DNA of 35,080 nt from Fulvivirga imtechensis AK7 (GTDB taxonomy: Bacteria; Bacteroidota; Bacteroidia; Cytophagales; Cyclobacteriaceae), in assembly GCF_000331535.1 (NCBI RefSeq), contig NZ_AMZN01000021.1:1-35080 (forward strand), read 5' to 3'. The notes under the pieces were generated by a model. The model had not been told where the DNA came from and made no database searches. It saw nothing but the letters and a program-made list of their open reading frames with translations. A program made the translations under genes and the position numbers. This document shows positions 6,180 to 26,824 of the stretch, one piece after another (positions within the stretch are counted from its first letter, which is position 1; every line of letters begins with the position of its first letter).

Positions 6180-6226
6180 CAAACCTATGTGTCAAATATT
6201 ACCTGATTTATGACTTAAGTCATAAA
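6180..6226 (-). promoter_or_regulatory. qNOR promoter: Crp/Fnr-type operator plus -7 box
   Basis: Perfect 20-bp palindrome at 6207-6226, with half-sites TTATGA and TCATAA separated by six bases (6208-6225, centre 6216.5). On the minus strand a perfect Bacteroidota -7 box TAGGTTTG covers 6187-6180. The operator centre is 29.5 bp upstream of the T of TA, about -42 from the likely start, the position of class-II Fnr/Crp activation. The identical operator core, -7 box and spacing occur upstream of the Fnr-like gene at 20762. Confidence 0.75.
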
Positions 6227-6252
6227 AAAATCAAGATTTGATATGTACTGCT

Positions 6253-6399
6253 AATTAGTAAGAAAACTCTAAGTGGATTTAAGAAAACGTTCCGCCAAAG
6301 GGCGGGACGAAGTCCCAAAAAGCGGAGCGTACTGAGGTACGTGAGCATTTTCGGGGCGAGCGTAACGCAGGCATTGGCGTTTTCTTAGAGACACTAATT
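6253..6399 (-). repeat. dispersed MITE-like structured repeat, copy 1
   Basis: About 147 bp, in inverse orientation relative to copy 2. The right edge, read on the minus strand, begins AATTAGTGTCTCTAAGAAAA. The left edge is the related inverted end AATTAGTAAGAAAA at 6253-6266. The interior carries nested inverted repeats (GTCCCAAAAA 6312-6321 with TTTTCGGGGC 6348-6357; an inner CGTAC/GTACG pair). Related copies are at 10129, 25891 and 34804. It lies between the divergent qNOR and lipoprotein genes, just beyond the qNOR operator. Confidence 0.8.
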
Positions 6400-6470
6400 T
6401 AATTAACATGCAGGAGAAGGTAAGGTTACTGATGATATTCTGTAGAAAAATCATTATTTTGTGTTGAAAT

Positions 6471-6893
6471 ATGCTGAGATTTCTTTTTTGTATTTCTTTT
6501 GTGATCGTTCTGGGTTGTGCTGACGATGATTCCTTTGAAAATGAACCTTATACTGGTGAATGGAGGCTTGAAGAGATCTTTCTTGATGGTGTTCAACAAC
6601 CAGAATGGCCATACGCAGTGCTTAACATTGACCAACTTAGTGCTGAGGGAGGGGTATACAACATGCCAAAGACCGTTTATGATTCTATCTGGCCTGAGGA
6701 AGGGCACTGGTCGAAGTCTCGTTATAAAAACCACCTGTTAATAGATGGCGATGCTGTAGGAGAGTATGATTCGGAACGCAATGTACTATGGGTCTCAAAG
6801 ATTATCCCCGGTACCGGAGTGGATGAGTGCACGGATACTATCTGCTTGCCTATTGTAACAGGTGAGTGGTTGTTTGGATTTACGAGGAAGTGA
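6471..6893 (+). CDS. small lipoprotein, unknown function
   Basis: 140 aa with a lipoprotein signal: MLRFLFCISFVIVLGC gives a good lipobox (V-L-G-C, Cys16) followed by acidic ADDDSFE. In Bacteroidota an acidic run after the Cys often marks surface export. The mature domain (GEWRLEEIFLDG ... WLFGFTRK) looks like a small beta-rich, lipocalin-like domain, by pattern only. A Cys pair near the end (DECTDTICLP) could form a disulfide. It is transcribed away from qNOR and converges on the T9SS protein gene. Confidence 0.75.
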   Translation: MLRFLFCISFVIVLGCADDDSFENEPYTGEWRLEEIFLDGVQQPEWPYAVLNIDQLSAEGGVYNMPKTVYDSIWPEEGHWSKSRYKNHLLIDGDAVGEYDSERNVLWVSKIIPGTGVDECTDTICLPIVTGEWLFGFTRK

Positions 6894-6941
6894 GAAAGTA
6901 ATTATTTTTTCATTGATTTTTTCACAAAATCTACATAGCAT

Positions 6942-8318
6942 TTACCGCACAATAAGGCGGTATCGACCCCTGAAGCGTTTGGTGTGAACAACCACCAAAT
7001 AATGGCCCGGCTGTCGAGGAGCTGAGATTTCGACCGAATCGTCTGACACGTATTGAGTGCTTATTTTTCTTCCGAATAGATCCAGAACGGAAACTTCTTT
7101 ATTACCGGTTTCAATGGCGAAAAGCATGGAAATTCTTTCTCCGCCAAATGCAGGATTTGGAAACATGAGGGTATGGTCGTCTTTATGCGGTTTTTCAACA
7201 TCGGTAACTAAGCTATTTGTGGTATGATAAACATTTTCATCCCAAACCTGCACCATGAATATTTTGCCATTTTGATCTTCTGCAAAATGCTGAATATTTC
7301 GAAAGCCGTAAATATCTAAGCCGAGGCCACTATTCATCATAAGCCAGTTTTGGCTTTTGTCTCCAGAAAAATAAGTAGTGCCTGTATTGATCGTACCCCG
7401 GGTAGAGCTATACCAGTCACCATTTTTTGCGAAATGAATGTTACTTAATGTCCTGTCCAGCCACCATGATACGGAATTGAAGACCTTGTAAGGGCTCCAG
7501 AAACTGTGATTTCGTATATCATTGATGCTCTTCTTTAGATTTAAACTTACAAATGCATTCACTGCGGTACCGGTGATACTCAGATAAACACTGTCTTCCG
7601 GTGACACCGAGAGGCCAAAAGTATTCCCTACCTTTATATTGTCTGGCACCGTGTTTTTCCCGTTAATGGAGATATTTATATGTTCCCATAGCAACCCATT
7701 ATTTTCGGAGATGAAGAGACCTCCATTTCCGGTTACGTATTCATCTGCCATGCCCAGGTAAAGTCTTCCCTTGCTGTCTATTGCTATTTTTTCACAGCTT
7801 TTGTAAATACCTAATCCATTATTGCGGTTAGCCCAGCTTTTGCCACCATCATCAGAGTAAAATACACCGTCTCCCACATAACCAAGGTCAACATCAAGTG
7901 CACCTGTGATGGCCAATAGGTGTCCCTGATGATTTTCGATCAACTGAACAACCGGGAAAGGAGATTGAAGAGTCACAGAGTACCAGTTTTTTCCAAGATC
8001 TTCGGAAAAGTAGATGGTTCCGGCACCTCCGGCATATACTTTACCTGCTTTACTGGCATATACCGAAAAGATAGCAGGTGCTGTTAAAACGCTTTCAAAT
8101 GTTTCTCCGTTATCGCAACTGCGGATTATTCCGGTGGTACAACCCACTATCAGGCAGGAGTTACCCGCAAGCGCAATTCCTGTTTTTGGACCTCCGGCAT
8201 ATTCTGGCCTGGCAGTCCAAAACTGCTGGGGCAGAACCCTCGAAATGAAGATCGGGTGCATACAAAGCGCAATTATACAAAGCAGGAACTGATTCCTCTT
8301 ATTAAAAATTTTATGCAT
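6942..8318 (-). CDS. secreted BNR/beta-propeller protein with T9SS sorting domain
   Basis: 458 aa. The N-terminal signal segment (residues ~10-30) is hydrophobic. The central region carries several Asp-box/BNR motifs of the S-x-D-x-G-x-x-(W/F) kind: SCDNGETF, SEDLGKNW, YSDDGGKSW and SENNGLLW. This indicates a sialidase-type or photosynthesis-stability-factor-type beta-propeller. The last ~80 residues (LMFPNPAFGGERISMLF ... VSVLDLFGRKI ... GHYLVVV) form a type A T9SS C-terminal sorting domain, so it should be exported across the outer membrane and attached or released. No catalytic set of a true sialidase is evident. It is the third gene of an operon after the cupin and STAS-like genes (gap 26 bases). 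Confidence 0.85.
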   Translation of the reverse strand: MHKIFNKRNQFLLCIIALCMHPIFISRVLPQQFWTARPEYAGGPKTGIALAGNSCLIVGCTTGIIRSCDNGETFESVLTAPAIFSVYASKAGKVYAGGAGTIYFSEDLGKNWYSVTLQSPFPVVQLIENHQGHLLAITGALDVDLGYVGDGVFYSDDGGKSWANRNNGLGIYKSCEKIAIDSKGRLYLGMADEYVTGNGGLFISENNGLLWEHINISINGKNTVPDNIKVGNTFGLSVSPEDSVYLSITGTAVNAFVSLNLKKSINDIRNHSFWSPYKVFNSVSWWLDRTLSNIHFAKNGDWYSSTRGTINTGTTYFSGDKSQNWLMMNSGLGLDIYGFRNIQHFAEDQNGKIFMVQVWDENVYHTTNSLVTDVEKPHKDDHTLMFPNPAFGGERISMLFAIETGNKEVSVLDLFGRKISTQYVSDDSVEISAPRQPGHYLVVVHTKRFRGRYRLIVR

Positions 8319-8344
8319 AGTTTTTCGATTTTAGCTTAAGTACC

Positions 8345-8794
8345 CTATGCTCCTAACGTATCGTCTTCTTTGGATCTTTGGGTAAGCCACTGCTCAGCTT
8401 GAGAAAGAGTTTCACAGAGAATGGTTGTGACCTTATTGGTGCTTCGTTTTTTCAACTCCAGAGACGACAATTTTGAAAACAGGTCAGGAGAGATGATGCT
8501 GATATTATATCTCAGTCCATACTCATAGTTCATAGGAAAGAAATAGTTGGTGATCCAATCCACTAGCCCTGCCCAGGCTCCTTCTATTTCTTTGGTATCA
8601 TGAACATGAAACCTGCATTTTCTTCGCGATCCCTCTGTTTTCTGCCATTCCAGCATTCGCAGTGAGGCATCTTTTACTTCAGGCTCAGCGCATGGGCCCA
8701 CCCATTTCATCAATAGATAATTCTTCTGAGGCTCATAGCTGAGCTTGGCATAGATCTCATCTGAGGCGTTTCTAATAAGGTCAACAACAATCAT
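8345..8794 (-). CDS. STAS/SpoIIAA-like small protein (tentative)
   Basis: 149 aa, soluble, no signal peptide. The alternating strand-helix pattern resembles SpoIIAA-like/STAS proteins found in Bacteroidota: AKLSYEPQKNYLLMKWVGPC, then EVKDASLRMLEWQKTEGSRRKCRFHVHDTKEIEGAWAG split by loops, then YNISIISPDLFSKLSSLELKK. No phosphorylatable Ser in the classical D-S-S-G setting can be named, so a specific partner role is not supported. It lies between the cupin gene (29-base gap) and the T9SS gene (26-base gap), almost certainly in one operon with them. Confidence 0.55.
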   Translation of the reverse strand: MIVVDLIRNASDEIYAKLSYEPQKNYLLMKWVGPCAEPEVKDASLRMLEWQKTEGSRRKCRFHVHDTKEIEGAWAGLVDWITNYFFPMNYEYGLRYNISIISPDLFSKLSSLELKKRSTNKVTTILCETLSQAEQWLTQRSKEDDTLGA

Positions 8795-8823
8795 TCTGAT
8801 TCAGACTAGCATGATCAAGCTAC

Positions 8824-9312
8824 TTAATTTTTCATTATTTCTGGTAATACAAACTGAATATTATGTTCTACGGCATTATCAAACACCTTTCCCATATCCA
8901 GTTTAGAAATATCCGGAATTTTATTCATGTCCGGCCTGTCTGCTTCGTCTTGAATAGGGTCGCCAATCACTCTAAAGTAATCGAGTAACTTGCCAGGGGT
9001 CAGCAATACCACCATTTTGCCTGTTGTGCCTCCTACATTTTTAAAGGTATGCAATGCATTAGAGGGTACATGTACCACACTTCCCGGAAGGGCTCTGAAC
9101 GGACTTTTGGGATCATTTAAAATGAATTCAAACTCTCCTTTTATCACGTAAAACACTTCCTCATCGGGATGCATGTGTGGTGGCGGACCTCCCAGGGGCG
9201 GTACATTTTCTTCAAATACAGCGTATTCTCCGTTGGTTTCATGGTTGCTCACCAAAATTTTGATGATGTTGGTTAATACCAACAGTTCTTCGGTTTTTGA
9301 CTTTGTTTTCAT
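8824..9312 (-). CDS. cupin-domain protein
   Basis: 162 aa with a single cupin fold. Motif 1 is PPHMHPDEEVFYVIKGEFEF (His-x-His, then Glu, then G). Motif 2 is PGSVVHVPSNALHTFKNVG with the second-motif His. The 2-His plus Glu plus His set suggests a metal-binding cupin of the quercetinase-like kind; the substrate is unknown. It is first in a three-gene minus-strand operon. A 22-bp perfect Fnr-type dyad lies 44-65 bases upstream of its start, with a near-consensus -7 box at the same spacing seen at qNOR, so expression is probably controlled by a Crp/Fnr protein. Confidence 0.85.
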   Translation of the reverse strand: MKTKSKTEELLVLTNIIKILVSNHETNGEYAVFEENVPPLGGPPPHMHPDEEVFYVIKGEFEFILNDPKSPFRALPGSVVHVPSNALHTFKNVGGTTGKMVVLLTPGKLLDYFRVIGDPIQDEADRPDMNKIPDISKLDMGKVFDNAVEHNIQFVLPEIMKN

Positions 9313-9329
9313 ACTTTAAATATTTTTAA

Positions 9330-9377
9330 CAAAGTAATGCCAACCTTTTTTAGGCTTTCTTGATCCAAATCAAGAAA
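9330..9377 (-). promoter_or_regulatory. cupin operon promoter: perfect FNR-type box
   Basis: Perfect dyad: TTTCTTGAT 9356-9364, spacer CCAA, ATCAAGAAA 9369-9377. It includes the textbook FNR core TTGAT-N4-ATCAA. Centre 9366.5. The minus-strand TTACTTTG at 9337-9330 is a -7 box with one mismatch to TAnnTTTG, again 29.5 bp from the operator centre. The site abuts the stop codon of the upstream Crp/Fnr gene. Confidence 0.7.
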
Positions 9378-9947: not shown

Positions 9948-10128
9948 GAATATTAAAAGGTAAGGTTAAAGATCTCTCAAAATTGGCCGGTAATTGATGT
10001 TTAATCGTAAAAGTACCAGACATGTGCTAAAGATAACAAAAACTTATCTGCACCTGTCGCGTAGTAGATAGAATAAAAAAGCAGATACGGAATAGCTAAA
10101 AACCGTATATACTTGTAACTTAAGCTAC
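9948..10128. promoter_or_regulatory. divergent intergenic region with possible kinase promoter
   Basis: Non-coding. On the plus strand TATACTTG at about 10107-10114 is a near match to the TAnnTTTG -7 box. If used, the whole repeat copy at 10129-10279 would lie in the 5' UTR of the histidine kinase. No clear operator is seen for the minus-strand Crp/Fnr gene. Confidence 0.35.
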
Positions 10129-10279
10129 TTAGTGTCTCTAAGAAAACGTCAATGTCTGCGTTACGTTTGTCCCAAAAATGCTCTCGTACCTTAGTGCGCT
10201 CCGTTTTTTGGGACTTCGTCCCGCCCTTTGGCGGTAACGTTTACTTAAAGCCACTTAGAGTTTACTTAAAGCCACTACT
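10129..10279 (+). repeat. dispersed MITE-like structured repeat, copy 2
   Basis: Begins TTAGTGTCTCTAAGAAAACG and ends in two direct 16-mers TTTACTTAAAGCCACT (10240-10255, 10261-10276). The interior forms a long stem GTCCCAAAAA (10169-10178) with TTTTTGGGAC (10205-10214). An inner CGTAC/GTGCG pair has a wobble, and GGGAC-TTC-GTCCC plus a GCC/GGC hairpin follow. It ends about 12 bases before the kinase start codon. Confidence 0.82.
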
Positions 10280-10290
10280 TACCCATTAAC

Positions 10291-12285: not shown

Positions 12286-12294
12286 TTTTACCTG

Positions 12295-13233
12295 TTACTT
12301 GTACCTGGAAAATATAGGCAGTTCTATTTTTGGAAGCTGAGCGATCTTGCTTTTGGCCTTTGCCCATGTGGAGTAGATACTAAAACCTTTTACTTTGATA
12401 TTCTTATCAACAGGATAAAGGTACACTATCAATCCCGCAGCCATAGCGAAGAAGAAGGAGGTTAAGCCATGTACCAATATTATTGTAAAATGAAAACTGA
12501 GGGCCATGATCAGCAAAGTTCGTTTTTTCTTGTAATCCATAAAAAGTGCGGCAAATAGCACTGCTTCCAGCACCAAAACGCTCCAGGTAATCAGCCGTCC
12601 GACAATCGGATCGAGTACTAAGCCGCCAAAGAGTCCATGTATAAAGTCCGGGGCTCCAAAAGGATTGTGATTAAACCAGTAATAGAAAGCAGAGCCATCT
12701 TTCCATGCATCTACCTTAAACTTATCAACACAAGCGAAGAAGTACACGATGGCCATCTGCACTTGCGCAATTACAAGGCTTGAGAAAGCAAAGTATTTAA
12801 AAAAAAACGGCATTTTATATCTGAAATAATGATTACTTTGCCAATGATTTAACCTTCTGTCTGTTATTGCAACAGGAATTATCAACAGGCTAAGGATCTG
12901 TGCTATCTGATCGCCACCTTCTATAACCAGTGCCATGTCAAAATAGCTAATAGCCAACCAGGTATGAAGAAAGCAACTAAGCTGAGGCAGGTAACCTGAA
13001 ACTACCCACACGAGAATAATACAGGCCAGAATGATGGAAATTGATAGATTTTCGTGCCCCAAGACAACAAAATAATTCCATGAAAGTGTGTCATAGCTGT
13101 CACTGAACAGTTCAATAGGAAAATTTCTGGTGTTATCTGTAAAGAGCAATGTAATTAGCAGGCTTATGGCTAATAACGACCGGGCTATTCCGTAGACATT
13201 GGTATGTACTTCCTTTATATTAAAAATGTTCAT
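12295..13233 (-). CDS. sdpB: SdpB-family membrane protein (HTTM domain), toxin maturation
   Basis: 312 aa, about six to eight TM helices. The opening block NVYGIARSLLAISLLITLLFTD matches the SdpB/HTTM family, which is related to vitamin-K-dependent gamma-carboxylase membrane domains. In Bacillus, SdpA and SdpB act after signal-peptide cleavage to release the mature SDP toxin from SdpC; the chemistry is not settled. Here the start codon is one base from the sdpA stop, so translation is probably coupled. It is the last gene of sdpC-sdpA-sdpB. The family call rests on the opening motif plus the neighbouring SdpA- and SdpC-like genes. Confidence 0.85.
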   Translation of the reverse strand: MNIFNIKEVHTNVYGIARSLLAISLLITLLFTDNTRNFPIELFSDSYDTLSWNYFVVLGHENLSISIILACIILVWVVSGYLPQLSCFLHTWLAISYFDMALVIEGGDQIAQILSLLIIPVAITDRRLNHWQSNHYFRYKMPFFFKYFAFSSLVIAQVQMAIVYFFACVDKFKVDAWKDGSAFYYWFNHNPFGAPDFIHGLFGGLVLDPIVGRLITWSVLVLEAVLFAALFMDYKKKRTLLIMALSFHFTIILVHGLTSFFFAMAAGLIVYLYPVDKNIKVKGFSIYSTWAKAKSKIAQLPKIELPIFSRYK

Positions 13234-13234
13234 T

Positions 13235-13777
13235 TTACTGTTTTTTACTCGTTACCTGTACTCGTGCTATTAAATAAGGCCTGTAACTTTCCTGTCCTTT
13301 ACCTGCCCATGCAAAGGGTATGGGCTCATACCTGTGAAGGATATATTCCCCCTCAGGGAAATATTGAATGGGCTTATCTGCAATGATGGTATCCGCTGTT
13401 AGAGGAATATTATCTTTAAAATCTCCTTTTCCCTTGTGCCACATATCAGCCTTGGCATACTCCAACAAAAACACAAGATCTATACCTGCGAACCGTGCAT
13501 TGCGCGAAAATCCAATCGCATTTGCTGCCGAAGCATTTTTTACTGTTATTAAGGAGACTTCATCAGTACTTTGATCATAGCTGTATGCTTCTGTAATGCC
13601 TTCTTTTGGATCTCTTGTGAAGAAGCCCCATCCCTGAGGAAGGAGCGAAGACAACAATTTCTTTGCCGAGTAAGGCATTTGATAATCCGGAGCATTATTG
13701 GCTCTCAGCGTGAAGAATATCACCGATAGCCAAATGCTCCAGATTAAAGCAATGCTGATGTTATGCCTTGTCATCAT
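13235..13777 (-). CDS. sdpA: SdpA-family antimicrobial peptide system protein
   Basis: 180 aa. One N-terminal TM or uncleaved signal (ISIALIWSIWLSVIFFTLRA) precedes an extracytoplasmic domain with the family hallmark LLPQGWGFFTRDPKE. SdpA works with SdpB to make active SDP-type peptide from SdpC in Bacillus. The gene follows sdpC after 15 bases and precedes sdpB by one base, the compact layout expected for an obligate toxin-maturation set. The start has two adjacent Met codons; the first is used here. Confidence 0.85.
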   Translation of the reverse strand: MMTRHNISIALIWSIWLSVIFFTLRANNAPDYQMPYSAKKLLSSLLPQGWGFFTRDPKEGITEAYSYDQSTDEVSLITVKNASAANAIGFSRNARFAGIDLVFLLEYAKADMWHKGKGDFKDNIPLTADTIIADKPIQYFPEGEYILHRYEPIPFAWAGKGQESYRPYLIARVQVTSKKQ

Positions 13778-13792: not shown

Positions 13793-14563
13793 TTAGTTGA
13801 TTACTGCAGCCAATTCAGAAATGAGAGACTTAGCTGTTGCATCATTGGACTCAAAGCGAGGTATTTGATAATTTTGTACCTTTGTGAAGTTGGCAGCCAT
13901 AGCCACGTTCCATGCGGCAGCTACATTTACCACGTATACCACATTACCTGCTACAACTGCCACAACAAACACAGCCAGGCAGTGACCACGACCGGAAACG
14001 GTGTTGGTGCCGGGAAGTTCTATACCATAATCTTCTTTAAATATTTTGGCAAAAGCTTCAGCGTCCTTTGCATTCGTCAGGTCCAGGTTCCTGAATTTCT
14101 CTGAATTGACATCAACATTTTTGTCTTTGATCTCCGTCAAAAGCTCGAAGTGTTCTGCGTAGCTGGACCTCTTTCCGGCTGCTTCAAACATGCTTTGAGC
14201 ATTTTGTAATGCAAGCTCTATTTCATAGAGATTTTCAGATTGCATGCTTCTTTTGAACTCTGCGAGGTATCCTGGGTCTATCACATTTACCTGACGGACA
14301 ATCTCATCAGAAAATTGAGCATATTCAGCCCATTGATCTTTTGTCATATTTGTGGCGAGCTGTTCGGCCCCCGGTTTTAATACTTCCATTTTGCCGGCCA
14401 GGGGTCCTTGCCAGAAAAATAGTCCTCTGAAAATCTCTTCTCCTGAGTATTCAGGTTCCGGTGATACTTCTTCCTCTGTAGAACAACTTGAAGCAACTAT
14501 CAGCGCACTGAAAAGTACGATACAGAACCATGTAGTTGGTTTATTATGAAATAATTTTGTCAT
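13793..14563 (-). CDS. sdpC: SdpC-family peptide toxin precursor, lipoprotein-like
   Basis: 256 aa from the ATG at 14563. The frame is open to 14629, but only this start gives a normal signal. The signal ends VASSC (Cys27) with acidic residues after it, suggesting a lipid-anchored precursor. The block SGEEIFRGLFFWQGPLA (~40-56) is characteristic of SdpC proteins. A helical propeptide (~57-180) follows. Residues ~193-227, starting GHCLAVFVVAVV, form a long hydrophobic stretch like the 42-residue membrane-killing SDP peptide of Bacillus. Bacillus SDP has two Cys in a disulfide, whereas this stretch has only Cys195. It is first in the operon with sdpA and sdpB. Cleavage sites are not predictable by eye. 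Confidence 0.85.
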   Translation of the reverse strand: MTKLFHNKPTTWFCIVLFSALIVASSCSTEEEVSPEPEYSGEEIFRGLFFWQGPLAGKMEVLKPGAEQLATNMTKDQWAEYAQFSDEIVRQVNVIDPGYLAEFKRSMQSENLYEIELALQNAQSMFEAAGKRSSYAEHFELLTEIKDKNVDVNSEKFRNLDLTNAKDAEAFAKIFKEDYGIELPGTNTVSGRGHCLAVFVVAVVAGNVVYVVNVAAAWNVAMAANFTKVQNYQIPRFESNDATAKSLISELAAVIN

Positions 14564-14778
14564 AGTTTTAAATAAATTTAGATTGTGTTGGTTTTTTGAT
14601 TTAGAAAATGTCCTCAGGATGACCTCCAATCAGCATTCCGTAATTGAAATTCAAGTTAGCGGCAGTGGCAAAAAGGATCAATCGCAGTAAGCCGGTATAT
14701 TGGGGAACCGCCGGAAACCGTGAGTAAAAAATGATAGTGAATAGACTATGCTAAACTCGAAGTAGGAATAGTTGGGGT
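14564..14778 (-). other. sdp upstream region
   Basis: About 215 bases hold the presumed sdp promoter. TAAATTTA on the minus strand around 14580 is a weak -7 candidate. An open frame without an ATG until near its end runs 14601-14750 (49 codons, ending NYGMLIGGHPEDIF); I do not consider it a gene. No clear operator is seen. Confidence 0.35.
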
Positions 14779-15980: not shown

Positions 15981-16529
15981 TTACGCTGGTTTTAGTACCA
16001 GGGATACGGTGATGTCCATAGCATCCTCTGCTTTGATAAGTCCTCCTAGCTTGCGGGGAGGGGTGAGCTTAAATTCAGAGGCGTAAAACACAAAATCGGC
16101 AGAAAGTACCTGCCTTGTTTTATCCAGCTTCATACAAAACTCAATATTTTCGAGCGTTTTGGACTTTCCTACGAGTGATAGTCTGATGTTTCCCTTCATA
16201 GTACCGGGCTCTTTTTCCTCCAGACTCAGCACTTCGACAGTTACTTTTGGGTGAGTCTTGGCTTTTAAAGTGGATTGAAAGTCGCGGTTTAGTATGAAAT
16301 TACCGCATTCAAATGCTTCCACAGGAATAGTGAAGCTATAAGGTGAAATATGCAAAGTGTTAATGTGTAAAGTGTCACCTTTCCCGGCTACCTCATAGTC
16401 ACAACTGAAGCCACCCAGAGAAGTATTTCCATTGATGGTGATACTTTTTTCCTGAATGATCAGGCAGGGGTCAGCTTTCGGTGATCCCAGTAAGGAGCTT
16501 AGAAGAAAAATGACACTTATTGCACTCAT
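15981..16529 (-). CDS. YceI-domain protein (second copy)
   Basis: 182 aa. A signal peptide (VIFLLSSLLGSPKA) precedes a lipocalin-like YceI fold that binds polyisoprenoid-type lipids in known relatives. Motifs include SFTIPVEAFECGNFILNRDFQSTLKAKTHP split by turns, GNIRLSLVGKSKTLENIEF, and ASEFKLTPPRKLGGLIKAEDAMDITVSLVL. The last, (F)KLTPPRKLGGLIK, parallels the FKVDPPTALLGTIKTGDEI block of the YceI gene at 17884-18474. It is last in YceI-porin-YceI, separated from the porin by 77 bases with a 10-bp stem hairpin. Confidence 0.8.
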   Translation of the reverse strand: MSAISVIFLLSSLLGSPKADPCLIIQEKSITINGNTSLGGFSCDYEVAGKGDTLHINTLHISPYSFTIPVEAFECGNFILNRDFQSTLKAKTHPKVTVEVLSLEEKEPGTMKGNIRLSLVGKSKTLENIEFCMKLDKTRQVLSADFVFYASEFKLTPPRKLGGLIKAEDAMDITVSLVLKPA

Positions 16530-16552
16530 CTTTTTCTGGTTTTAAGCCCATG

Positions 16553-16585
16553 GCCTACCAACTTTCATAATGTCCGTTGGTAGGC
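16553..16585 (-). terminator. hairpin between porin-like gene and second YceI gene
   Basis: Perfect 10-bp inverted repeat GCCTACCAAC 16553-16562 and GTTGGTAGGC 16576-16585, 13-base loop. No T tract follows on the minus strand, so it may be a partial terminator or an RNA-stabilising element that lowers expression of the downstream YceI gene. Confidence 0.5.
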
Positions 16586-16606
16586 GTAGACTATAATTTT
16601 AAGGTA

Positions 16607-17887
16607 TTAGAAACTAATGACTGCTTCAACCATGAATCCGTTGAATTCACCACCGGCATATTTAGAACCTATCCATCCTGTGCCTTCATACTTTTGGTTC
16701 ACATACTCGGCTTTTGCCATTATATTTTTGGTCATAAACCAACCACCACCGATATTTAAACGATTTATTTCTCTTTCTGGTGCCCCTTCTATCATTTCAC
16801 CGGTCACTACATTGTATCTTCCCCCAACATACAGTTGTTCCATACTACCAAACCTGTAAATAAGTTCACCACCCAGTTGTGTAAATTGGCCATTTCCTTC
16901 ATCATCACTATTGGAAGCTACCTCATAGACTCCAAAGAACTCTATTCCTTTGTATTTGATGAATGGGTTGACCTGAATAGCAGTTATCTCCTTAAAGCGG
17001 GGATTAAACCGGCCTTCAAAATTACTTCCACCGTCAGCTACAGTGTGCATTACATAGTAGTACCTGCTACCTGCACGGTCACCACCATACAGGTATGATC
17101 CGGTTGTATTACCTTTATTCATATATACTGATCCGGTCAGTCGCACTCTCAAATCATCAGCGATGTAGTTGTCATAACCCAATTTACCAAAGAAAGAAAG
17201 CTTGTTGTCGGAGTTATCGTTCACTACTACACTCTGATTGAGCTTACCATTGGTAATACCCACAACTCCAAGGAAACCATTTTGCTGAACCGTTACTTCA
17301 GCAAAAGCTTCAGTTGAAAAAGCATCCATGATATAGTTGCCTACAAAAGGGTTATAAATAGCCCGCGCGTTATCAGTTCTTCTAAAGCGTGTATCACCGT
17401 AATTGAATTCATCCATACCAACCCTGATAGTGGTTACATCCATTACACCTTTCAAAAAACCTGGTTTGATAAAATCCAGTTTATCCATTTGAATGTATCC
17501 GCCTTTCACCCATGATTCTTCATGGTGTCTTGAAGAAAGATAAGAAGTAAGATGCATCCTTACACCATCATGTAACTGTACATCAAGCACAAGGCTGGCT
17601 GTTGGCAGGTTGAGGTTTGAACCTAATTCTACCAATGGGAACAAATTTTCCTGACCGGAAAGTCCATTTTCCTGATCTATGGCCTGGAATTGCATAGCAA
17701 ATGCGCCACCAACTCTTACCTTCAACCCATCATACTCAACAGTGTCCGTTTTTGAAGTTTCAAATACATTGATTCCATCCTGACCCACAGGTCTGAAGTA
17801 TTGTAGGGCTCTGCTACTTTGACCGTAAGCGGCCCAGCTTGTGGCAGCAAATAAGACTACCAGGAGCAATTTCATTGACTTTTTCAT
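16607..17887 (-). CDS. outer-membrane porin-like beta-barrel
   Basis: 426 aa. The signal peptide is MKKSMKLLLVVLFAATSWAAYGQ. The mature protein is rich in alternating aromatic/polar strands and ends in ...GFMVEAVISF, a terminal aromatic typical of outer-membrane barrels. Segments such as LKVRVGGAFAMQFQA, QLYVGGRYNVVTGE and NIMAKAEYVNQKYEGTGW look like phosphate-selective-porin or OprP-type strands. The substrate is unknown. The start overlaps the stop of the upstream YceI gene by 4 bases (ATGA), so the pair is translationally coupled. The link with two YceI proteins suggests a role in envelope lipid or solute handling. Confidence 0.8.
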   Translation of the reverse strand: MKKSMKLLLVVLFAATSWAAYGQSSRALQYFRPVGQDGINVFETSKTDTVEYDGLKVRVGGAFAMQFQAIDQENGLSGQENLFPLVELGSNLNLPTASLVLDVQLHDGVRMHLTSYLSSRHHEESWVKGGYIQMDKLDFIKPGFLKGVMDVTTIRVGMDEFNYGDTRFRRTDNARAIYNPFVGNYIMDAFSTEAFAEVTVQQNGFLGVVGITNGKLNQSVVVNDNSDNKLSFFGKLGYDNYIADDLRVRLTGSVYMNKGNTTGSYLYGGDRAGSRYYYVMHTVADGGSNFEGRFNPRFKEITAIQVNPFIKYKGIEFFGVYEVASNSDDEGNGQFTQLGGELIYRFGSMEQLYVGGRYNVVTGEMIEGAPEREINRLNIGGGWFMTKNIMAKAEYVNQKYEGTGWIGSKYAGGEFNGFMVEAVISF

Positions 17888-18474
17888 GATTGTTTTGATT
17901 TAAATGTTAAGCTAAAGTTTATGGTTATTTCATCCCCTGTTTTGATAGTTCCGAGCAAAGCTGTAGGGGGGTCAACTTTAAAGTCGGTCATATTAAAGGT
18001 TTTACTACCGGTAAACCTGATGGTGTTGCCATTGGGATAGGCTTTGGTCACCACGTCCACAGTTCTGGATTCCCCAGCTATAGTAAGTGTGCCCTCAGCC
18101 ATAACCTGGTAGTAATCACCTTTTTTCTCTATTGATTTCACATTTTTCAGATTAAACTTTATGTCAGGGTTTTTCCCCGTTTTCAGCGCCTTATACGCGT
18201 TGCCGTCCATTCCTGACTTTCCACTTTTAAGCGACTCAGCTTTCATTGTTACGGAGAGTTGCTCTATACTTTGAAGCGCTTTAGCTTCGGCAGTGATAAC
18301 GGCCTCTCCCTTACCTTCAGAAGAAGTCATTGTCCAGTCATGCAGGGAAGATGTACCGGAAACAGAGAATTCTGCTCCGGGTGATAGTGTATGGTTGGTT
18401 TGAGCGCTGAGGCCCCAACTCATTACAACCATCGGGAGCAGCATGAACAGATATTTATTGGTAAGTGCTTTCAT
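17884..18474 (-). CDS. YceI-family periplasmic lipid-binding-like protein
   Basis: 196 aa with a signal peptide (LFMLLPMVVMSWGLSAQ). The complete YceI domain has SVSGTSSLHDWTMTSSEGKGEA, SLKSGKSGMDGNAYKALK, DIKFNLKNV, GTLTIAGESRTVDV and FKVDPPTALLGTIKTGDEITINF. Family members bind isoprenoid lipids in a beta-barrel pocket. It is first in an operon with the porin (4-base overlap). The promoter upstream carries a perfect TAnnTTTG box and a degenerate Crp/Fnr-like dyad at the same spacing as the qNOR promoter. Confidence 0.9.
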   Translation of the reverse strand: MKALTNKYLFMLLPMVVMSWGLSAQTNHTLSPGAEFSVSGTSSLHDWTMTSSEGKGEAVITAEAKALQSIEQLSVTMKAESLKSGKSGMDGNAYKALKTGKNPDIKFNLKNVKSIEKKGDYYQVMAEGTLTIAGESRTVDVVTKAYPNGNTIRFTGSKTFNMTDFKVDPPTALLGTIKTGDEITINFSLTFKSKQS

Positions 18475-18509: not shown

Positions 18510-18555
18510 CAAATCTAGAGCCCGTAGCATCGGCAAAGTATGATGTGTGTCAGTT
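18510..18555 (-). promoter_or_regulatory. YceI-porin operon promoter with Crp/Fnr-like dyad
   Basis: The minus strand carries a perfect -7 box TAGATTTG (18517-18510). The dyad GTATGA-N6-TCAGTT at 18538-18555 is centred at 18546.5, again 29.5 bp from the TA. A TTTG at 18537-18534 is close to a -33 element, with a slightly short 16-bp spacing. Confidence 0.6.
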
Positions 18556-19158: not shown

Positions 19159-19911
19159 TTATCCCGCATCTATTCTAAAATTGGATAAGGATCCGGTAGA
19201 AATAAACACCGAAAGTCCATTGAAATGCCTAAAGGATCCGTTGGAAAATAGTTGTGCTAATTCATAAAGATCACCTTTAGATAATACCAACAGGTCAGCC
19301 TGGTTTTTCAAAGCATAGTTGCAGAAATCATTTACGGAATCCAGAGGTAACTTTATAAATCCCAGATCTCCATAGTATGTCGATACTTTTTTAACAAACA
19401 TTTTCTCTGCCGCCACTTTTGATCGTTTAAAAGCAAAAGGGGAAATGAGTGTGGAGCTTTTGACATTCTTAGCTTTATTGGGAAATAACTTAGCGAAAGA
19501 TAGTATGGAATTATAAGTGGTATCTGTGCCGTCATATTTCAAAACAATACTGTTAAATTCATTGGTATTTACATTCAACAGCAAAAGGGCACAGTCTATA
19601 CCCTTGAGTTCCTTTATGAGCAAGGGTATGATGTCATAAGCTTTATGCAATTTTTTAATATCAAATACTATGAGATTGAAGAAATAATCTTCCGGGAAAG
19701 AAGGTGCTGAATGGCCTGCGTGAATAGTTTCTCTTACATTTTCCACAGCATTGATGAACGTCCGGATATTATGTTTGGCCAACTGAACTATTTGTATCTC
19801 TGGCGGATCATTGGCTAATGGTCGATTGGAGCAGATATTCCGTACAAGATTAATAAATGTTTGATCTGGTCTGGGATCGGTATATCCGATGGTGATGTTC
19901 AGTTTAGCCAT
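19159..19911 (-). CDS. universal-stress-protein-like protein (tentative)
   Basis: 250 aa, soluble, no signal peptide. The layout suggests a degenerate tandem USP. The first half opens with a strand (KLNITIGYTDP) and holds FFNLIVFDIKKLHKAYDIIPLLIKELKGIDCALLLLNVN in pieces. The second half ends ALKNQADLLVLSKGDLYELAQLFSNGSFRHFNGLSVFIST, like the C-terminal USP motif in which the gene product contacts ATP in true members. The G-x2-G-x9-G-(S/T) ATP motif is not clear, so ATP binding is doubtful. It lies downstream of the Fnr-like gene (134-base gap) and has its own -7 box. Confidence 0.55.
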   Translation of the reverse strand: MAKLNITIGYTDPRPDQTFINLVRNICSNRPLANDPPEIQIVQLAKHNIRTFINAVENVRETIHAGHSAPSFPEDYFFNLIVFDIKKLHKAYDIIPLLIKELKGIDCALLLLNVNTNEFNSIVLKYDGTDTTYNSILSFAKLFPNKAKNVKSSTLISPFAFKRSKVAAEKMFVKKVSTYYGDLGFIKLPLDSVNDFCNYALKNQADLLVLSKGDLYELAQLFSNGSFRHFNGLSVFISTGSLSNFRIDAG

Positions 19912-19935: not shown

Positions 19936-19981
19936 CAAAATTAGGCCTATCGGGAAAGTCGTGAAATGATCGTGTACAGAT
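19936..19981 (-). promoter_or_regulatory. USP-like gene promoter, degenerate dyad
   Basis: Perfect minus-strand -7 box TAATTTTG (19943-19936). At the same 29.5-bp distance lies a degenerate dyad AAATGA-N6-ACAGAT (19964-19981), matching about 7 of 12 positions of the qNOR operator. The operator is weak; the -7 box is good. Confidence 0.45.
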
Positions 19982-20045
19982 GATGAGGTGATTTTTATCA
20001 GGAAAAACATGATGTTTTTTTGATCAGGAAGCCTCAGGTTGCATA

Positions 20046-20815: not shown

Positions 20816-20881
20816 CAAACCTATGGGTAAGTTGCAGGAAAAATTATGACCTTCATCATAAAAACTAACTGATTTGGATCA
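20816..20881 (-). promoter_or_regulatory. Fnr-like gene promoter: two tandem Crp/Fnr-type sites
   Basis: The minus-strand -7 box TAGGTTTG (20823-20816) is identical to that of qNOR. The proximal operator TTATGA-N6-TCATAA (20844-20861, centre 20852.5) lies exactly 29.5 bp upstream. A second dyad TGATTTGGATCA (20870-20881) matches the FNR-type core upstream of the cupin operon when reverse-complemented, and is centred 23 bp further up, about two helical turns. Confidence 0.75.
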
Positions 20882-20901
20882 TATAGTGGGCAGGATAATG
20901 A

Positions 20902-22394: not shown

Positions 22395-22705
22395 AAAATA
22401 ACTGCAACTTATACGGCACAGTAATAGTACACTTGACTCAATACTAGTTGGAAAACAGGTGCCGGAGTGATTTGTTTAAAGACTTTTATTACTGTTTAGG
22501 TTCGCAGTCTATGGAATGTGAAGCAATTATGGAGGCGGATCTTAAGTGCTCTTCCACAAACCAGGGGGAGTGCAAAATACAATAAGACACTAATTATAGA
22601 TAAAGTTAATGCCGTCATAGGCAAATGGTATTGAAATGTTGAAAATTTGAGTACTCACATCCGTATTTACTCATAAATCAATTTTCAATATTAAACCATA
22701 AAGCA
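22395..22705. other. intergenic region upstream of FMN reductase
   Basis: No gene seen. TGAGTACTCA at 22648-22657 is a perfect 10-bp palindrome about 50 bases upstream of the reductase start and could be an operator for the MarR-like protein of the same operon; that link is inference. Confidence 0.35.
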
Positions 22706-23260: not shown

Positions 23261-23276
23261 CCAAAATCCATTTATT

Positions 23277-23711: not shown

Positions 23712-23720
23712 TTTCTTTTA

Positions 23721-23756
23721 ATATCATCAGGCTGATCCTGCCTGATGATATTTTTT
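23721..23756 (+). terminator. intrinsic terminator after FMN reductase / MarR operon
   Basis: Perfect 12-bp stem (ATATCATCAGGC 23721-23732, GCCTGATGATAT 23740-23751), 7-base loop, followed by TTTTT. It also separates this operon from the convergent copB gene ending at 23757. Confidence 0.85.
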
Positions 23757-25880
23757 CTACGTCTTCAGTTTTGTTTTTAATAGTTGAGCGTTTATCGCTA
23801 CAATAACAGTACTAAGACTCATAAATACTGCACCTATTGCAGGACTAATCACCAGCCCTGATACAAAACCGGTCGCCAGTGGCAGCGATATGGCATTATA
23901 ACCTGTAGCCCAAATCAGGTTTTGGATCATTTTTTTATAGGTAGCTCTGCCAAAAAGAATGAGACTGGCTATATCTCTGGGATTGCTGTTGACCAGGATA
24001 ATATCAGCGGTTTCGGCAGCTACATCTGTCCCGGAGCCAACGGCAATGCCAACATTGGCCTGGGCAAGGGCGGGGGCGTCATTAACGCCATCACCTGTCA
24101 TCGCAACAAAATGTCCTTCCTTTTGGAGTTTTTTAATCACATCTACCTTTTCATGGGGCATAACCTCACTATAGTAGCCGTCCAGTTGCAATTTTTCACT
24201 TACTGATTTAGCTGTTTTTTCGTTGTCACCAGTGGCCATATACAGTTTTATTCCTTTAGCACGTAACATGTCGATCGCTTTCGGGCTTTCCTCTCTAATT
24301 TTGTCAGCCAGAGCGATAAAACCAGCGAGTTTTTCTTCCCGGATTAGAAATACTATGGTTTCTGCAGCATCAGAAGTGGTATTAGCTGGTATTTCAATTT
24401 TGTTTTCGCGCAAATATCCCGGGCTTACTACCAGCCACTGCACACCAGAAATACTACCCCTGATCCCCTTGGCAGTTAAAGATTTGAAATCTGTAACCTT
24501 TTTTAGCTCCAGTTTTTGCCCTTTTGCCTTTTTTACAATGCCCTGTGCTATGGGGTGCTCTGATTGTTGTTCCAACGAAGCAGCTACTGTCAATAATTCT
24601 TCACCGGTTATATCAGGGAGTAAGCTTTCATACCTGGAAACACCGAATTTACCTTCCGTTAGCGTTCCGGTTTTATCGAACACGAGAGCAGTTATTTTAC
24701 GTGCGTTTTCAAAGGCAGTTCGGTTTCGGATCAGTAACCCTTTTCTGGCAGAGACTGCAGTGGATATGGCAACCACAAGGGGGATGGCTAGTCCCAGTGC
24801 ATGGGGACACGAAATGACCATTACTGTTACCATTCGTTCCAGGGCGTAGTCAAAAGGTTTGCCCATAGCTAGCCATATGACCAATGTGGCTGTTCCGGCA
24901 CCAATAGCGATAAATGTCAGCCAACGCGCTGCAACATTGGCCAGGTTTTGCGTCTTGGATTTTGCTTTTTGCGCTTCTTCCACCAGGGTGATAACTTTAT
25001 TAAGGTAGCTTTCTTTTCCTGTCTTGGCTACCCTTACCTTCAATGATTGATTCCCGTTGACTGAACCTCCTATTACCTGGTCGCCTTTTGTCTTTTTTAC
25101 GGGTTTGCTTTCCCCGGTGAGCATACTTTCATCCAGGTAACTTTCACCTTCTATTACTATTCCATCGGCAGGTATTTTTTCATTAGCTTTGATGAGAATG
25201 ATGTCATTGGGCTTCAGTTGCTCGACCTTCACATCCATCACATGGTCACCATGTACCACGTGTGCTTCGGCAGGCATCATCTGTACCAGCAGCTCCAGTG
25301 CTCGTGAGGCACCCATTACGGACTTCATCTCTACCCAATGCCCCAACAGCATGATCACAATCAGTGTCGCCAACTCCCAATAAAAGTCCATCCCCTCAAG
25401 CCCGAATACTACAGCGGAACTGTAAACATAGGCGACAGCAATAGCTACACCGATAAGAGTCATCATACCGGGATTTTTCTCCTTCACCTCATCTTTTAAT
25501 CCCACGAGAAATGGCCAGCCGCCATAGAAAAAGATAATAGTGGATAGTAAAAATAGAATATATTGACTGCCAGTAAATTGAATGGTAAATCCCAACCAGT
25601 GCTGTATCATTTCTGAAAGTGCCAGCACCGGCAACGTCAGCAGCAGCGATATCCAAAACCGCTTTTTAAAGTCTTCGATCATGTGTGCATGGTGACCGTG
25701 GTGGCCGTGGTGGCTACTCTGTCTATCAGCGTGTTTGTCGTGTACATGTGCATCATGACCGTGTAGGGTAGTTTCGGCTAACTGATCCTTTACCTCATGC
25801 TCTTTGGTTATGGCGTCTTGGTTCAATTGGCTATTCCCATGTGTTGTATGAGTATGCGCCTTATGCTTGGAGTGGTCCAT
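23757..25880 (-). CDS. copB: CopB-type heavy-metal P1B ATPase with His-rich N-terminus
   Basis: 707 aa metal exporter of the inner membrane. It has a His-rich N-tail (18 His in the first 66 residues) instead of CxxC HMA domains. TM helices lead to the actuator motif ESMLTGESKPV (~251-261). The metal-site motif is Cys-Pro-His (358-360, ISCPHALGLAIP), marking the CopB/P1B-3 subgroup, associated with Cu(II), Cu(I) or Ag(I). The phosphorylation motif DKTGTLTEG has Asp402, and SEHPIAQGI and MTGDGVNDAPAL are also present. Repeat copy 3 begins 10 bases upstream of the start codon. No CopA, CopZ or regulator gene is adjacent. Confidence 0.93.
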   Translation of the reverse strand: MDHSKHKAHTHTTHGNSQLNQDAITKEHEVKDQLAETTLHGHDAHVHDKHADRQSSHHGHHGHHAHMIEDFKKRFWISLLLTLPVLALSEMIQHWLGFTIQFTGSQYILFLLSTIIFFYGGWPFLVGLKDEVKEKNPGMMTLIGVAIAVAYVYSSAVVFGLEGMDFYWELATLIVIMLLGHWVEMKSVMGASRALELLVQMMPAEAHVVHGDHVMDVKVEQLKPNDIILIKANEKIPADGIVIEGESYLDESMLTGESKPVKKTKGDQVIGGSVNGNQSLKVRVAKTGKESYLNKVITLVEEAQKAKSKTQNLANVAARWLTFIAIGAGTATLVIWLAMGKPFDYALERMVTVMVISCPHALGLAIPLVVAISTAVSARKGLLIRNRTAFENARKITALVFDKTGTLTEGKFGVSRYESLLPDITGEELLTVAASLEQQSEHPIAQGIVKKAKGQKLELKKVTDFKSLTAKGIRGSISGVQWLVVSPGYLRENKIEIPANTTSDAAETIVFLIREEKLAGFIALADKIREESPKAIDMLRAKGIKLYMATGDNEKTAKSVSEKLQLDGYYSEVMPHEKVDVIKKLQKEGHFVAMTGDGVNDAPALAQANVGIAVGSGTDVAAETADIILVNSNPRDIASLILFGRATYKKMIQNLIWATGYNAISLPLATGFVSGLVISPAIGAVFMSLSTVIVAINAQLLKTKLKT

Positions 25881-25890
25881 AGTAGTTGTT

Positions 25891-26062
25891 TTTAATTAGT
25901 GTCTCTAAGAAAACGCCAATGTCCGCGTTACGCTCGTTCCAAAAATGCTCTTCCCGACAACTGTAACAACTGTACGGGACTACCGCTTTTTGGAACTTCG
26001 CAAGCCTTGACCTTAACGTTTTCTTAAAGCCACTTAGATTTTTCTTACAAACACTAATTAAA
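25891..26062 (+). repeat. dispersed MITE-like structured repeat, copy 3 (most complete ends)
   Basis: Terminal inverted repeats of 20-23 bp: left AATTAGTGTCTCTAAGAAAA (25894-25913), right the inverse of AATTAGTGTTTGTAAGAAAA (26040-26059), 18 of 20 matching and extended by TTT/AAA. The central stem is GTTCCAAAAA (25936-25945) with TTTTTGGAAC (25987-25996). The loop is replaced by a different inner hairpin (TCCCG/CGGGA). It is the longest copy at about 170 bp. Confidence 0.85.
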
Positions 26063-26345
26063 GAGGCGGATCCCTTGATGCCTCCATCTAATACAAATTA
26101 ACGAACTTTAACAGGGGGGCGTTTTATAGAATTTTCTGATTCTGTTATATGAATTACTGATCTCCATCCTAATGGCTGACTGCTGGTTTTTTTCACCTTC
26201 ATCATGTCTACTACCAGACCTGCAAGGTGAAATCCTTGCACCGTATCCCTCACTGCCAATGCTATTAAGAATGATTTTTTATGGTGAGTTTTAATGGGAT
26301 CGACTTAAAATGTTGCGCCATCTGTTTAAGAGATATAATCTGCCA
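26063..26345. other. intergenic region, possible decayed 3' part of Crp gene
   Basis: A 7-bp hairpin TGCAAGG 26221-26227 / CCTTGCA 26234-26240 is present. On the minus strand an open frame without ATG start (26098-26304, 68 codons, ending SIKRPPVKVR) and a short in-frame tail beyond the Crp stop (SLKQMAQHF-like) are seen. Neither gives a convincing gene. Confidence 0.35.
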
Positions 26346-26759
26346 TTAAAAACCCTCAACAATTTTTGGAGCAACAGGTCGCCTGTCATACAACAACTGC
26401 TGAACCTCCCGCGTTTTCAGGAAGCAGCAAAATGTGTCTTCTGTTGTCATCGCGCTGTTAATGAAGCGCCCGTTCCTGATCGAATTATAACCTACATAAT
26501 CGCCATCTGTGGCATGCAAAGCACCTGGATCTTCATTTTCTTGATCAGTGATTGCCACCGCTCCCTTGTAGATACAAAAAATACCTTCAAAAGTATCCCC
26601 TCTTTTAAATAGGTAACTCCCTTTGTTGAAATATAAAAAATCGCGGTGACTAAATTGTTCATCAGCAAGATGTAAAAACGGAAACTCATTTTTTGGAAGA
26701 CAAAGCGGGCGATTGATACACACTAAGCACAAGCTGTTTTTGACATTGCTTATTCTCAT
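26346..26759 (-). pseudogene. truncated Crp/Fnr-family protein (sensor domain only)
   Basis: 137 aa. It has N-terminal cysteines (Cys11, Cys14, Cys20 in CLVCINRPLC) like the Fnr-like protein at 20046-20762, and a cNMP-type beta roll with FKRGDTFEGIFCIYKGAVAI and GDYVGYNSI. It stops right after the beta roll (...EVQQLLYDRRPVAPKIVEGF), with no full dimer helix and no HTH. Full paralogues are 190-240 aa. It could be a decaying regulator or a stand-alone sensor domain that dimerises with or inhibits full Crp/Fnr proteins. Its promoter region keeps the dyad-to-TA spacing of the other sites, which argues it may still be expressed. Confidence 0.65.
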
Positions 26760-26781
26760 AGCGGATGTTAGTTGAGGAAAG

Positions 26782-26824
26782 ACAAAATACTACCAGAAAA
26801 GCAAATGAAAAATGACTTTTGTCA
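26782..26824 (-). promoter_or_regulatory. promoter of truncated Crp gene with Crp/Fnr-like dyad
   Basis: TGAC-TTTT-GTCA at 26813-26824 (AAATGA-N6-TCAGTT as half-sites), centre 26818.5. On the minus strand TATTTTGT starts at 26789, giving TA at exactly 29.5 bp, though the TTTG is one base close. It could also act on the divergent permease gene at 26928. Confidence 0.45.

Follow-up and report, generated by a model that had tools for sequence, protein, structure and literature searches.

The window, by which we mean the whole stretch of 35,080 nucleotides analysed from Fulvivirga imtechensis AK7, holds on its minus strand the genes of a quinol-type nitric oxide reductase (qNOR), a cupin-domain protein with the Crp-family gene P0003 beside it, a YceI-porin-YceI block, a 250-aa protein, the Fnr-like regulator P0001 and a truncated Crp-type protein, P0004 (Table 1). 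Two gene names are taken over from the initial annotation as labels: the 426-aa "porin" has no Pfam or NCBIfam match, and "USP-like" for the 250-aa gene found no Pfam support at E values up to 5. As the start of qNOR we took the ATG matching the orthologue in a relative (G008), chosen by eye, because the listed TTG start overlaps the -7 box. Behind the truncated Crp gene, no helix-turn-helix was recognisable by eye in three frames.

Table 1. Promoter elements and genes of the window
Feature	Position	Strand	Remark
Dyad TGACTTAAGTCA (TTATGA-N6-TCATAA), qNOR promoter	6211..6222	-	Sequence reading and pattern scan
-7 box TAGGTTTG, qNOR promoter	6180..6187	-	29.5 bp from dyad centre
Quinol-type nitric oxide reductase (qNOR)	3828..6155	-	NorB_cytochrome_c-like and COX1
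Dyad TTGATTTGGATCAA (core), FNR-type half-sites	9361..9372	-	Between P0003 stop and cupin gene
-7 box TTACTTTG, cupin promoter	9330..9337	-	5/6 fixed letters
Crp-family gene P0003	9378..9947	-	Helix TPETLSR
Cupin-domain gene	8824..9312	-	
Dyad TGACACACATCA, upstream of YceI	18541..18552	-	
-7 box TAGATTTG, YceI promoter	18510..18517	-	
YceI-porin-YceI genes, whole block	15981..18474	-	
First YceI	17884-18474	-	
426-aa protein ("porin")	16607-17887	-	
Second YceI	15981-16529	-	
Degenerate dyad TGTACACGATCA, USP-like promoter	19967..19978	-	
Second, better dyad TGATAAAAATCA, USP-like promoter	19989..20000	-	22 bp upstream
-7 box TAATTTTG, USP-like promoter	19936..19943	-	
250-aa gene ("USP-like")	19159..19911	-	
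Dyad TGATGAAGGTCA, Fnr-like promoter	20847..20858	-	
Second dyad TGATCCAAATCA, Fnr-like promoter	20870..20881	-	23 bp upstream
-7 box TAGGTTTG, Fnr-like promoter	20816..20823	-	
Fnr-like regulator P0001	20046..20762	-	cNMP_binding and HTH_Crp_2; helix TATETLIR; Cys10, 13, 59, 112
Dyad TGACAAAAGTCA, truncated Crp promoter	26813..26824	-	
Imperfect box TATTTTGT, truncated Crp promoter	26782..26789	-	4/6 fixed letters
Truncated Crp-type protein P0004, 137 aa	26346..26759	-	Without helix-turn-helix match

The six dyads were read in the sequence at the centres given in the initial annotation (6216.5, 9366.5, 18546.5, 19972.5, 20852.5 and 26818.5, all on the minus strand), and at every one of these promoters the dyad centre and the first base of a TAnnTTTG-like box are 29.5 bp apart, a distance counted by eye for all six and recounted by script for five. 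The box is indeed perfect at the qNOR, YceI, USP-like and Fnr-like promoters, and the qNOR and Fnr-like promoters have both TTATGA-N6-TCATAA and the box TAGGTTTG in common. The core TGA-N6-TCA, said to unite the dyads, is present at five promoters but not at the USP-like one, where the dyad reads TGT-N6-TCA and is degenerate, two-fold in one half only. A better dyad is centred there at 19994.5, and the Fnr-like promoter carries a second one at 20875.5.

The checks proposed along with that annotation, by shuffling, whole-genome scan and relatives, bore out the dyads and their spacing. TGA-N6-TCA occurs 23 times in the window against 11.75 expected, a count reached in none of 100 shuffles, and of the window dyads paired with a box of at least 5/6 letters, five fall at N23 (the gap between dyad and box at a centre-to-box distance of 29.5 bp), while 40 other spacings average 0.43 each. 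Genome-wide, N23 has 11 cases of TGA-N6-TCA with an exact box, and 29 other spacings have 3.03 on average. A reversed-pattern control, with one match in this genome, was too weak because the base order is altered, and other spacings therefore served as the main control. The strict dyad TGAY-N4-RTCA was picked after all 11 N23 matches proved to fit it; its 11 of 22 own-genome matches at N23 (mean 0.69 per other spacing) are thus counted on the sites on which the pattern was chosen, and the relatives serve as the independent test. In 27 relatives, N23 accounted for 98 of 334 strict matches over N15-N31 (mean 14.75 per other spacing), in 20 further genomes of the same class for 94 of 248 (9.6 per other spacing) and in 75 genomes of other classes for 30 of 241. 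Complete match lists show a sharp N23 peak with an N24 shoulder, both in ten relatives (36 and 11 of 117) and in ten genomes of the class (38 and 13 of 111). Furthermore, 73 of 80 sampled N23 sites were intergenic, against 15 of 40 control sites at other spacings, and 61/80 against 9/40 were intergenic with a start downstream. We take the 29.5-bp geometry to hold as a rule across this class. It could be argued that chance alone yields such dyad-box pairs in AT-rich intergenic DNA, since loose dyads do occur elsewhere (N18, the runner-up for the bare TGA-N6-TCA in the own genome, has nine); the strict-dyad excess in the own genome, the relatives and the class contradicts this, all spacings being sampled from the same DNA, and we hold it to be extremely improbable.

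In Escherichia coli, class II CRP and FNR promoters have the dimer site centred at -41.5 and an upstream promoter element that is weak or absent. The promoters described here differ in their Bacteroidota-type TAnnTTTG -7 box, and the constant visible in them is the 29.5 bp to that box. No conserved -33 element was found in the 66 sites profiled of the relatives' 98, TTG standing directly behind the dyad in 11/66 and over the next ten positions in 8/66; like class II promoters, they thus have no strong upstream core element. Because the -7 box occupies -12 to -5 in Flavobacterium psychrophilum, according to passages of PMC9723704, the dyad centre is predicted at -41.5 (29.5 + 12), in line with the class II position originally proposed, and would there serve class II activation. 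The reading that we consider probable is that of Crp/Fnr class II activator promoters built on one class-wide layout and used by several paralogous regulators with overlapping local and global regulons. The regulator dimer at -41.5 would lie beside RNA polymerase holding the TAnnTTTG box and would stand in for the missing -33 element, so that activation would come from the bound regulator; paralogous regulators on this one geometry would differ in their inputs and, in part, in their half-site letters.

The fixed distance seems to be used by a number of distinct regulators and not by a single common programme. The cupin site, TTGAT-N4-ATCAA, lies directly behind its own Crp-type gene, P0003, an arrangement repeated at locus L219 with a regulator 47% identical, and the letters of the cupin box recur, as counted by eye, at N23 in L219 and at N24 in L218, where the left half is GTGA instead of TTGA. 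Judging from this gene order, P0003 is likely the cupin gene's own activator, and most likely the switch of this promoter. A Crp gene ends directly before the dyad in 10 of 80 N23 sites and in 3 of 40 controls, all three at N24. Where a regulator with an E-T-x-S-R helix ends before the site and its Glu is preceded by P or Q (15 cases) or by I (one case), the site is TTGA..TCAA in 16/16; in the 80-site sample, this holds for 9/9 sites beside such regulators against 6/71 others. With R before the Glu, GTGA occupies the left half in 3/3 and both halves in 2/3, and a correlation of helix and half-site, including R with GTGA, is reported in the passages of PMC1274295. In the sequences compared, the half-site letters of regulators encoded beside their site follow the recognition helix. 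Of 19 Crp-type genes scanned, 12 lacked, within their 2.3-3.3 kb locus, any site whose box matched in 5/6 letters or more.

As regards qNOR, its orthologue in G008 retains the exact site, the best matches to P0001 in that genome are 35% identical, and a DNR-like paralogue of the P0002 type is encoded there about 9 kb from qNOR. In G021 a P0002-type gene is divergent from a NosZ-type gene with an exact site, and Ric and qNOR lie within about 13 kb; in one or other of G008 and G021, qNOR, Ric/hemerythrin and NosZ-type genes bear such sites close to a P0002-type gene. In the own genome, P0002 and qNOR are on different contigs. The nearest solved structures to P0002 are 3h3z and 3fx3 (about 5e-12, cyclic-nucleotide-binding-type), followed by DNR (3.6e-11), and in G021 and G008 genes of its type, like those of the NO-responsive activators DNR and NnrR, are linked to nor/nos-type genes with matching sites. 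The qNOR promoter would be switched by P0002, or by P0002 jointly with P0001.

FNR oxygen sensors have a CX2CX5C motif plus a distal Cys for the Fe-S cluster and the recognition helix E-x-x-S-R. P0001 resembles FNR in its cNMP and HTH_Crp domains, in the conserved CxxC and in Cys112, but its helix is E-x-x-I-R, and CX2CX5C is absent from P0001 and four orthologues compared, which have Ser at position 19. In the alignment, Cys10 and Cys13 are kept in 81/81 sequences, Cys59 in 79/81 and Cys112 in 80/81, and the NCBIfam Fnr model NF008365 scores P0001 at 100.7 bits, below its cut-off of 228. A P-type ATPase lies near P0001 in 28 of 80 orthologue loci, the one scanned having an ATPase-cat_bd domain. 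The closest solved structure, 2gau, is a Porphyromonas Crp/Fnr protein, treated as the effector-independent CrpPg in the passages of PMC12937710 and PMC6955866, whereas P0001 has conserved cysteines. The same passages describe PgRsp of Porphyromonas as regulating its own expression. The proposal that the regulon includes its own regulator agrees with the exact site before P0001 and before its G015 orthologue (61% identical; the G025 orthologue has a 5/6 box), but it does not hold generally: among 80 orthologues, exact boxes occur four times at N23 and three times at N10, boxes of at least 5/6 letters seven times at N23 and 18 times at N9-N10, and in L044 (50% identical) and L045 (48%) no TGA-N6-TCA site is accompanied by an acceptable box. 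The N23 position is thus not universal and, N23 sites being in the minority, conserved autoregulation of P0001 was rejected. A dyad at N9-N10 would suit repression, as it would cover the promoter, and together with the doubled dyads of the Fnr-like and USP-like promoters this could mean that several of the dyads act chiefly as repressor sites or as dual-use operators. We find this quite improbable: a peak as sharp as that at N23, with no conserved -33 element, fits activation, and the own genome shows no excess at N9 or N10 (3 and 1 of its 99 bare TGA-N6-TCA matches).

In Echinicola (L109), YceI, the "porin" and a second YceI adjoin the Fnr-like gene, and the YceI-porin genes may belong to P0001, which would switch both them and its own gene. 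Conservation of their site, anticipated in the initial annotation, is patchy: the strict dyad precedes YceI in at least 11 of the 26 relatives that have both genes, and 6 of 29 loci carry an N23 box with 5/6 letters or more. A single NO- or O2-responsive regulon of P0001 spanning all six promoters, as first proposed, could draw on this neighbourhood, on the geometry common to all six, on the identical dyad and box of the qNOR and Fnr-like promoters and on the exact site before the G015 orthologue. We nevertheless rejected it as unlikely, since the cupin site, with FNR-type half-sites, follows its own Crp gene, the qNOR site is kept in G008 without a close P0001 orthologue, and the geometry, present across the class, occurs next to many different regulators.

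Two receiver-domain/Crp response regulators, encoded with histidine kinases, lie elsewhere in the genome among clustered stress and anaerobic genes that bear N23 sites; the stress cluster containing the receiver-Crp gene has retained exact sites in G001, G008 and G014. A literature search on such regulators returned nothing relevant, which does not prove them undescribed. The helix type E-T/S-x-I-R is common to P0001, P0002 and one receiver-Crp protein, so that ATGA/CTGA sites are not assignable from sequence alone. We see an even chance that a 29.5-bp rule readable across the Bacteroidia, by which orphan regulators can be matched to their targets, coexists with a second layer of common ATGA/CTGA operators. 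Many orphan Crp/Fnr genes would directly precede one target's operator, and an orphan regulator could be assigned its operator and target because of this adjoining position and of half-site letters tracking the helix. The second layer would be common to an FNR-like sensor, a DNR-like sensor and phosphorylation-controlled receiver-Crp regulators, and oxygen, NO and kinase signals would converge on one promoter position.

Related systems have been described. HcpR of Bacteroides and Porphyromonas is a Crp/Fnr-type nitrogen-oxide regulator in Bacteroidota with the motifs TTGACnnnnGTCAA or GTAACnnnnGTTAC (for HcpR2 GTAACnnnnGTTAC, with another in P. gingivalis), according to passages of PMC1274295; the sites before qNOR, the Fnr-like gene and YceI belong to other types. 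Passages of PMC8510549 assign CRP/FNR homologues of Flavobacteriales and Saprospiraceae to MalR, so that targets had been predicted earlier in Bacteroidota, but with a Bacteroides MalR matrix and, in those passages, with no mention of a fixed distance to the -7 box. Herbaspirillum has three Fnr paralogues whose targets are partly separate and partly shared (PMC5934665); they are alike in acting on one promoter type, in another phylum and with no receiver-Crp protein in the abstract. The low-oxygen survival locus lxa of Burkholderia cenocepacia, a species whose universal stress proteins react to low oxygen (passages of PMC3759415), likewise belongs to another phylum, whereas receiver-Crp genes and 29.5-bp TAnnTTTG sites are found here. 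The passages and listings examined contained no statement of a 29.5-bp spacing.

Promoters of Bacteroidota depart from the E. coli pattern, and activator-dependent transcription is, to our knowledge, less well mapped in this phylum. If true, a fixed activator-to-box distance would make targets predictable for uncharacterised Crp/Fnr proteins, including those controlling NO and N2O reduction, and with about 20 Crp-type proteins per such genome it would yield a list of testable regulator/target pairs.

The six dyads and their TAnnTTTG-like -7 boxes, before the qNOR, cupin, YceI-porin, USP-like, Fnr-like and truncated Crp genes, lie where the initial annotation placed them, all on the minus strand (by eye, and for five of the six also by script), and the four -7 boxes claimed to be perfect read so by eye. 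The TGA-N6-TCA core that all six were said to share is present at five; the USP-like promoter reads TGTACACGATCA. Additional dyads lie 22 bp upstream of the USP-like site and 23 bp upstream of the Fnr-like site. Such dyads are rarer in shuffled sequence: TGA-N6-TCA occurs 23 times in the window against 11.75 expected, and none of 100 shuffles came to 23. Boxes with at least five of the six letters number five at a dyad-to-box gap of 23 bp (N23; other gaps likewise) against an average of 0.43 at 40 other spacings.

In the genome of F. imtechensis AK7 (6.7 Mb in 225 contigs, the window being all of contig C21), TGA-N6-TCA-N23-TAnnTTTG was found 11 times, against one match of the reversed-pattern control, and with one mismatch tolerated 50 times against 10. 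From N9 to N38 the bare dyad and box gave 99 matches, with a mean of 3.03 at the 29 spacings other than N23; because the runner-up, N18, gives nine, the N23 excess seen with the bare pattern is by itself suggestive rather than decisive. All 11 matches fit the strict dyad TGAY-N4-RTCA, with which N23 accounted for 11 of the 22 matches between N15 and N31 and every other spacing for at most three. Since the strict pattern was fixed on these 11 sites, the relatives are the fair test, and there the single spacing was borne out: the N23 peak recurs in 27 relatives (98 of 334 strict matches; mean 14.75 at other spacings) and in another 20 members of the class (94 of 248; mean 9.6), with a smaller excess in 75 genomes of other classes (30 of 241 versus a mean of 13.2).

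Flanks were taken for 80 N23 sites, namely the first 60 matches listed for relatives plus one from each of 20 class genomes, in each case the first in its list, and compared by Fisher tests with the first 40 matches listed at other spacings, own-genome matches being left aside. Intergenic sites made up 54/60 and 19/20 of these groups against 15/40 controls, and intergenic sites with a downstream start 49/60 and 12/20 against 9/40. Between dyad and box, the 66 profiled of the relatives' 98 sites had no strongly conserved letter, the commonest being a T directly behind the dyad (41/66). Passages of PMC9723704 place the TAnnTTTG box of Flavobacterium psychrophilum at -12 to -5; therefore, the dyad centre would fall at -41.5.

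Orthologues of qNOR were found in three of 27 relatives. One (G008) has an exact site and no match above 35% identity to P0001, the Fnr-like regulator of the window; in another (G021) a Ric gene with a 5/6 box precedes qNOR, and a gene of the type of P0002, the paralogue on contig C29, is divergent from a NosZ-type gene carrying an exact site; in G001 the contig ends inside the gene, leaving its promoter outside the comparison. Among 193 further genomes from the order, only two had a cupin orthologue at the cut-off used (loci L219 and L218). Both retain TGATTTGNATCA and TTACTTTG; the gap, counted by eye, is N23 for L219 and N24 for L218, and the left half is TTGA and GTGA, respectively. Both also hold a relative (47-48% identity) of P0003, the Crp-type gene directly before cupin; this relative lies directly upstream of cupin in L219 and divergently on the opposite strand in L218. 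The porin gene was present in 32 of the 193 genomes (E up to 1e-60), preceded by YceI in 26 of 29 loci examined. At least 11 of these 26 have a strict dyad ahead of YceI, a lower bound as the count covers dyads whose box scores 4/6 or better, and 6/29 loci have a box of at least 5/6 at N23 before YceI; at L216, where YceI was not found, such a box stands directly before porin. In Echinicola a P0001 orthologue, with an exact box at N24 in its own promoter, adjoins YceI-porin-YceI; upstream of YceI only a degenerate dyad with no matching box was seen by eye.

The promoters of P0001 itself provide counter-evidence. TGA-N6-TCA lies within 350 nt upstream in 34 of 80 named orthologues, with exact boxes at N23 (four), N10 (three) and N24 (one). 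Boxes of at least five letters at N9-N10 (18) outnumber those at N23 (seven), and thus this promoter often has another layout, perhaps serving repression. By eye, Cyclobacteriaceae (L108-L139) have a conserved dyad upstream of P0001 orthologues with a TAnnTTTA box about 10 nt downstream, sometimes joined, 13 nt beyond it, by a TAnnTTTG box at N23.

As candidate regulators the genome has 22 cNMP-domain matches, 21 above cut-off. P0001, whose nearest named orthologues (61-63% identity) belong to Cytophagales, among them Marivirga and Roseivirga, scores under the cut-off of the NCBIfam Fnr model; its Cys10, 13, 59 and 112 are each present in 79 or more of the 81 sequences aligned. In many relatives the P0001 search matches frames of about 350-380 aa. 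P0002 appears to be DNR-related; its divergent neighbour is an oxygen-independent coproporphyrinogen oxidase gene. In two proteins a receiver domain is fused to a Crp-type regulator, one of them confirmed by Pfam and the other read by eye. On C31 and C111 an exact site precedes a 146-aa gene, and sites with 5/6 boxes precede HSP20, histidine kinase and phosphoribosyltransferase genes; the C31 cluster also has PPDK, OsmC and Usp genes. Related clusters in three relatives (G001, G008, G014) retain exact N23 sites and a receiver-Crp gene (83-85% identity).

Sites, regulators and further features of the window and of contigs C29 and C31
Feature	Location	Remarks
Cupin -7 box	window, minus strand	TTACTTTG; imperfect
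Truncated Crp gene -7 box	window, minus strand	TATTTTGT; imperfect
Site before acetyl-CoA hydrolase gene	C29	box 6/6
Site before P0002	C29	box 6/6
Site before Ric/hemerythrin gene	C29	box 4/6
Receiver-Crp protein 1	L032:11405-12478 (C29)	directly behind PAS histidine kinase gene
Receiver-Crp protein 2	C31:41396-42028	behind apparent kinase end (by eye)
Crp-type protein, 137 aa	window 26346-26759	CX2CX5C (Cys11, 14, 20); no helix-turn-helix match
Copper-type P-ATPase	window 23757-25880	TIGR01511, 590 bits (cut-off 397); adjoins truncated Crp gene
Interspersed repeat (~150 bp), two copies	window 10126-10281 and 25893-26060	blocks of 59 and 54 nt, 90% and 81% alike
Similar stretch, inverted	window about 6255-6400	behind qNOR promoter (by eye)
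SdpA family protein	window 13235-13777	Pfam PF17418, sporulation-delaying protein
Genes flanking SdpA family gene	window 12295-13233 and 13793-14629	

The 137-aa protein, the shortest open frame among the P0001 matches listed in 28 genomes, can be read either as a decaying gene or as a partner without DNA binding.

Of 19 own-genome Crp-type genes scanned, five have a dyad within 44 nt after the stop and a box of at least 5/6 at N23 or N24; in P0001 and P0002 dyad and box sit before, not behind, the gene, and for 12 no dyad had a box of 5/6 or better. A Crp gene ends directly before 10 of the 80 N23 sites against three of the 40 controls, all three at N24. A DinB-family gene follows this arrangement in the own genome, G011 and G007, and by eye in G009. 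The half-site letters vary with the recognition helix: where P or Q (15 cases) or I (one) precedes the Glu of an E-T-x-S-R helix, the site has TTGA..TCAA in 16/16 cases; where R precedes it, GTGA occupies the left half in 3/3 and both halves in 2/3. In the 80-site sample TTGA..TCAA occurs at 9/9 sites behind such a P/Q/I-type gene versus 6/71 others; three of these six (L233, L286, L298) likewise have a Crp gene next to them, but differently oriented. A link of residue 180 to that half-site base is reported in PMC1274295. The half-site of L218 and the one Ile-type helix make the rule slightly less tidy. Altogether, these sequence comparisons argue that the sites are probably class II Crp/Fnr activator promoters, built on one class-wide geometry that several paralogous regulators would use.
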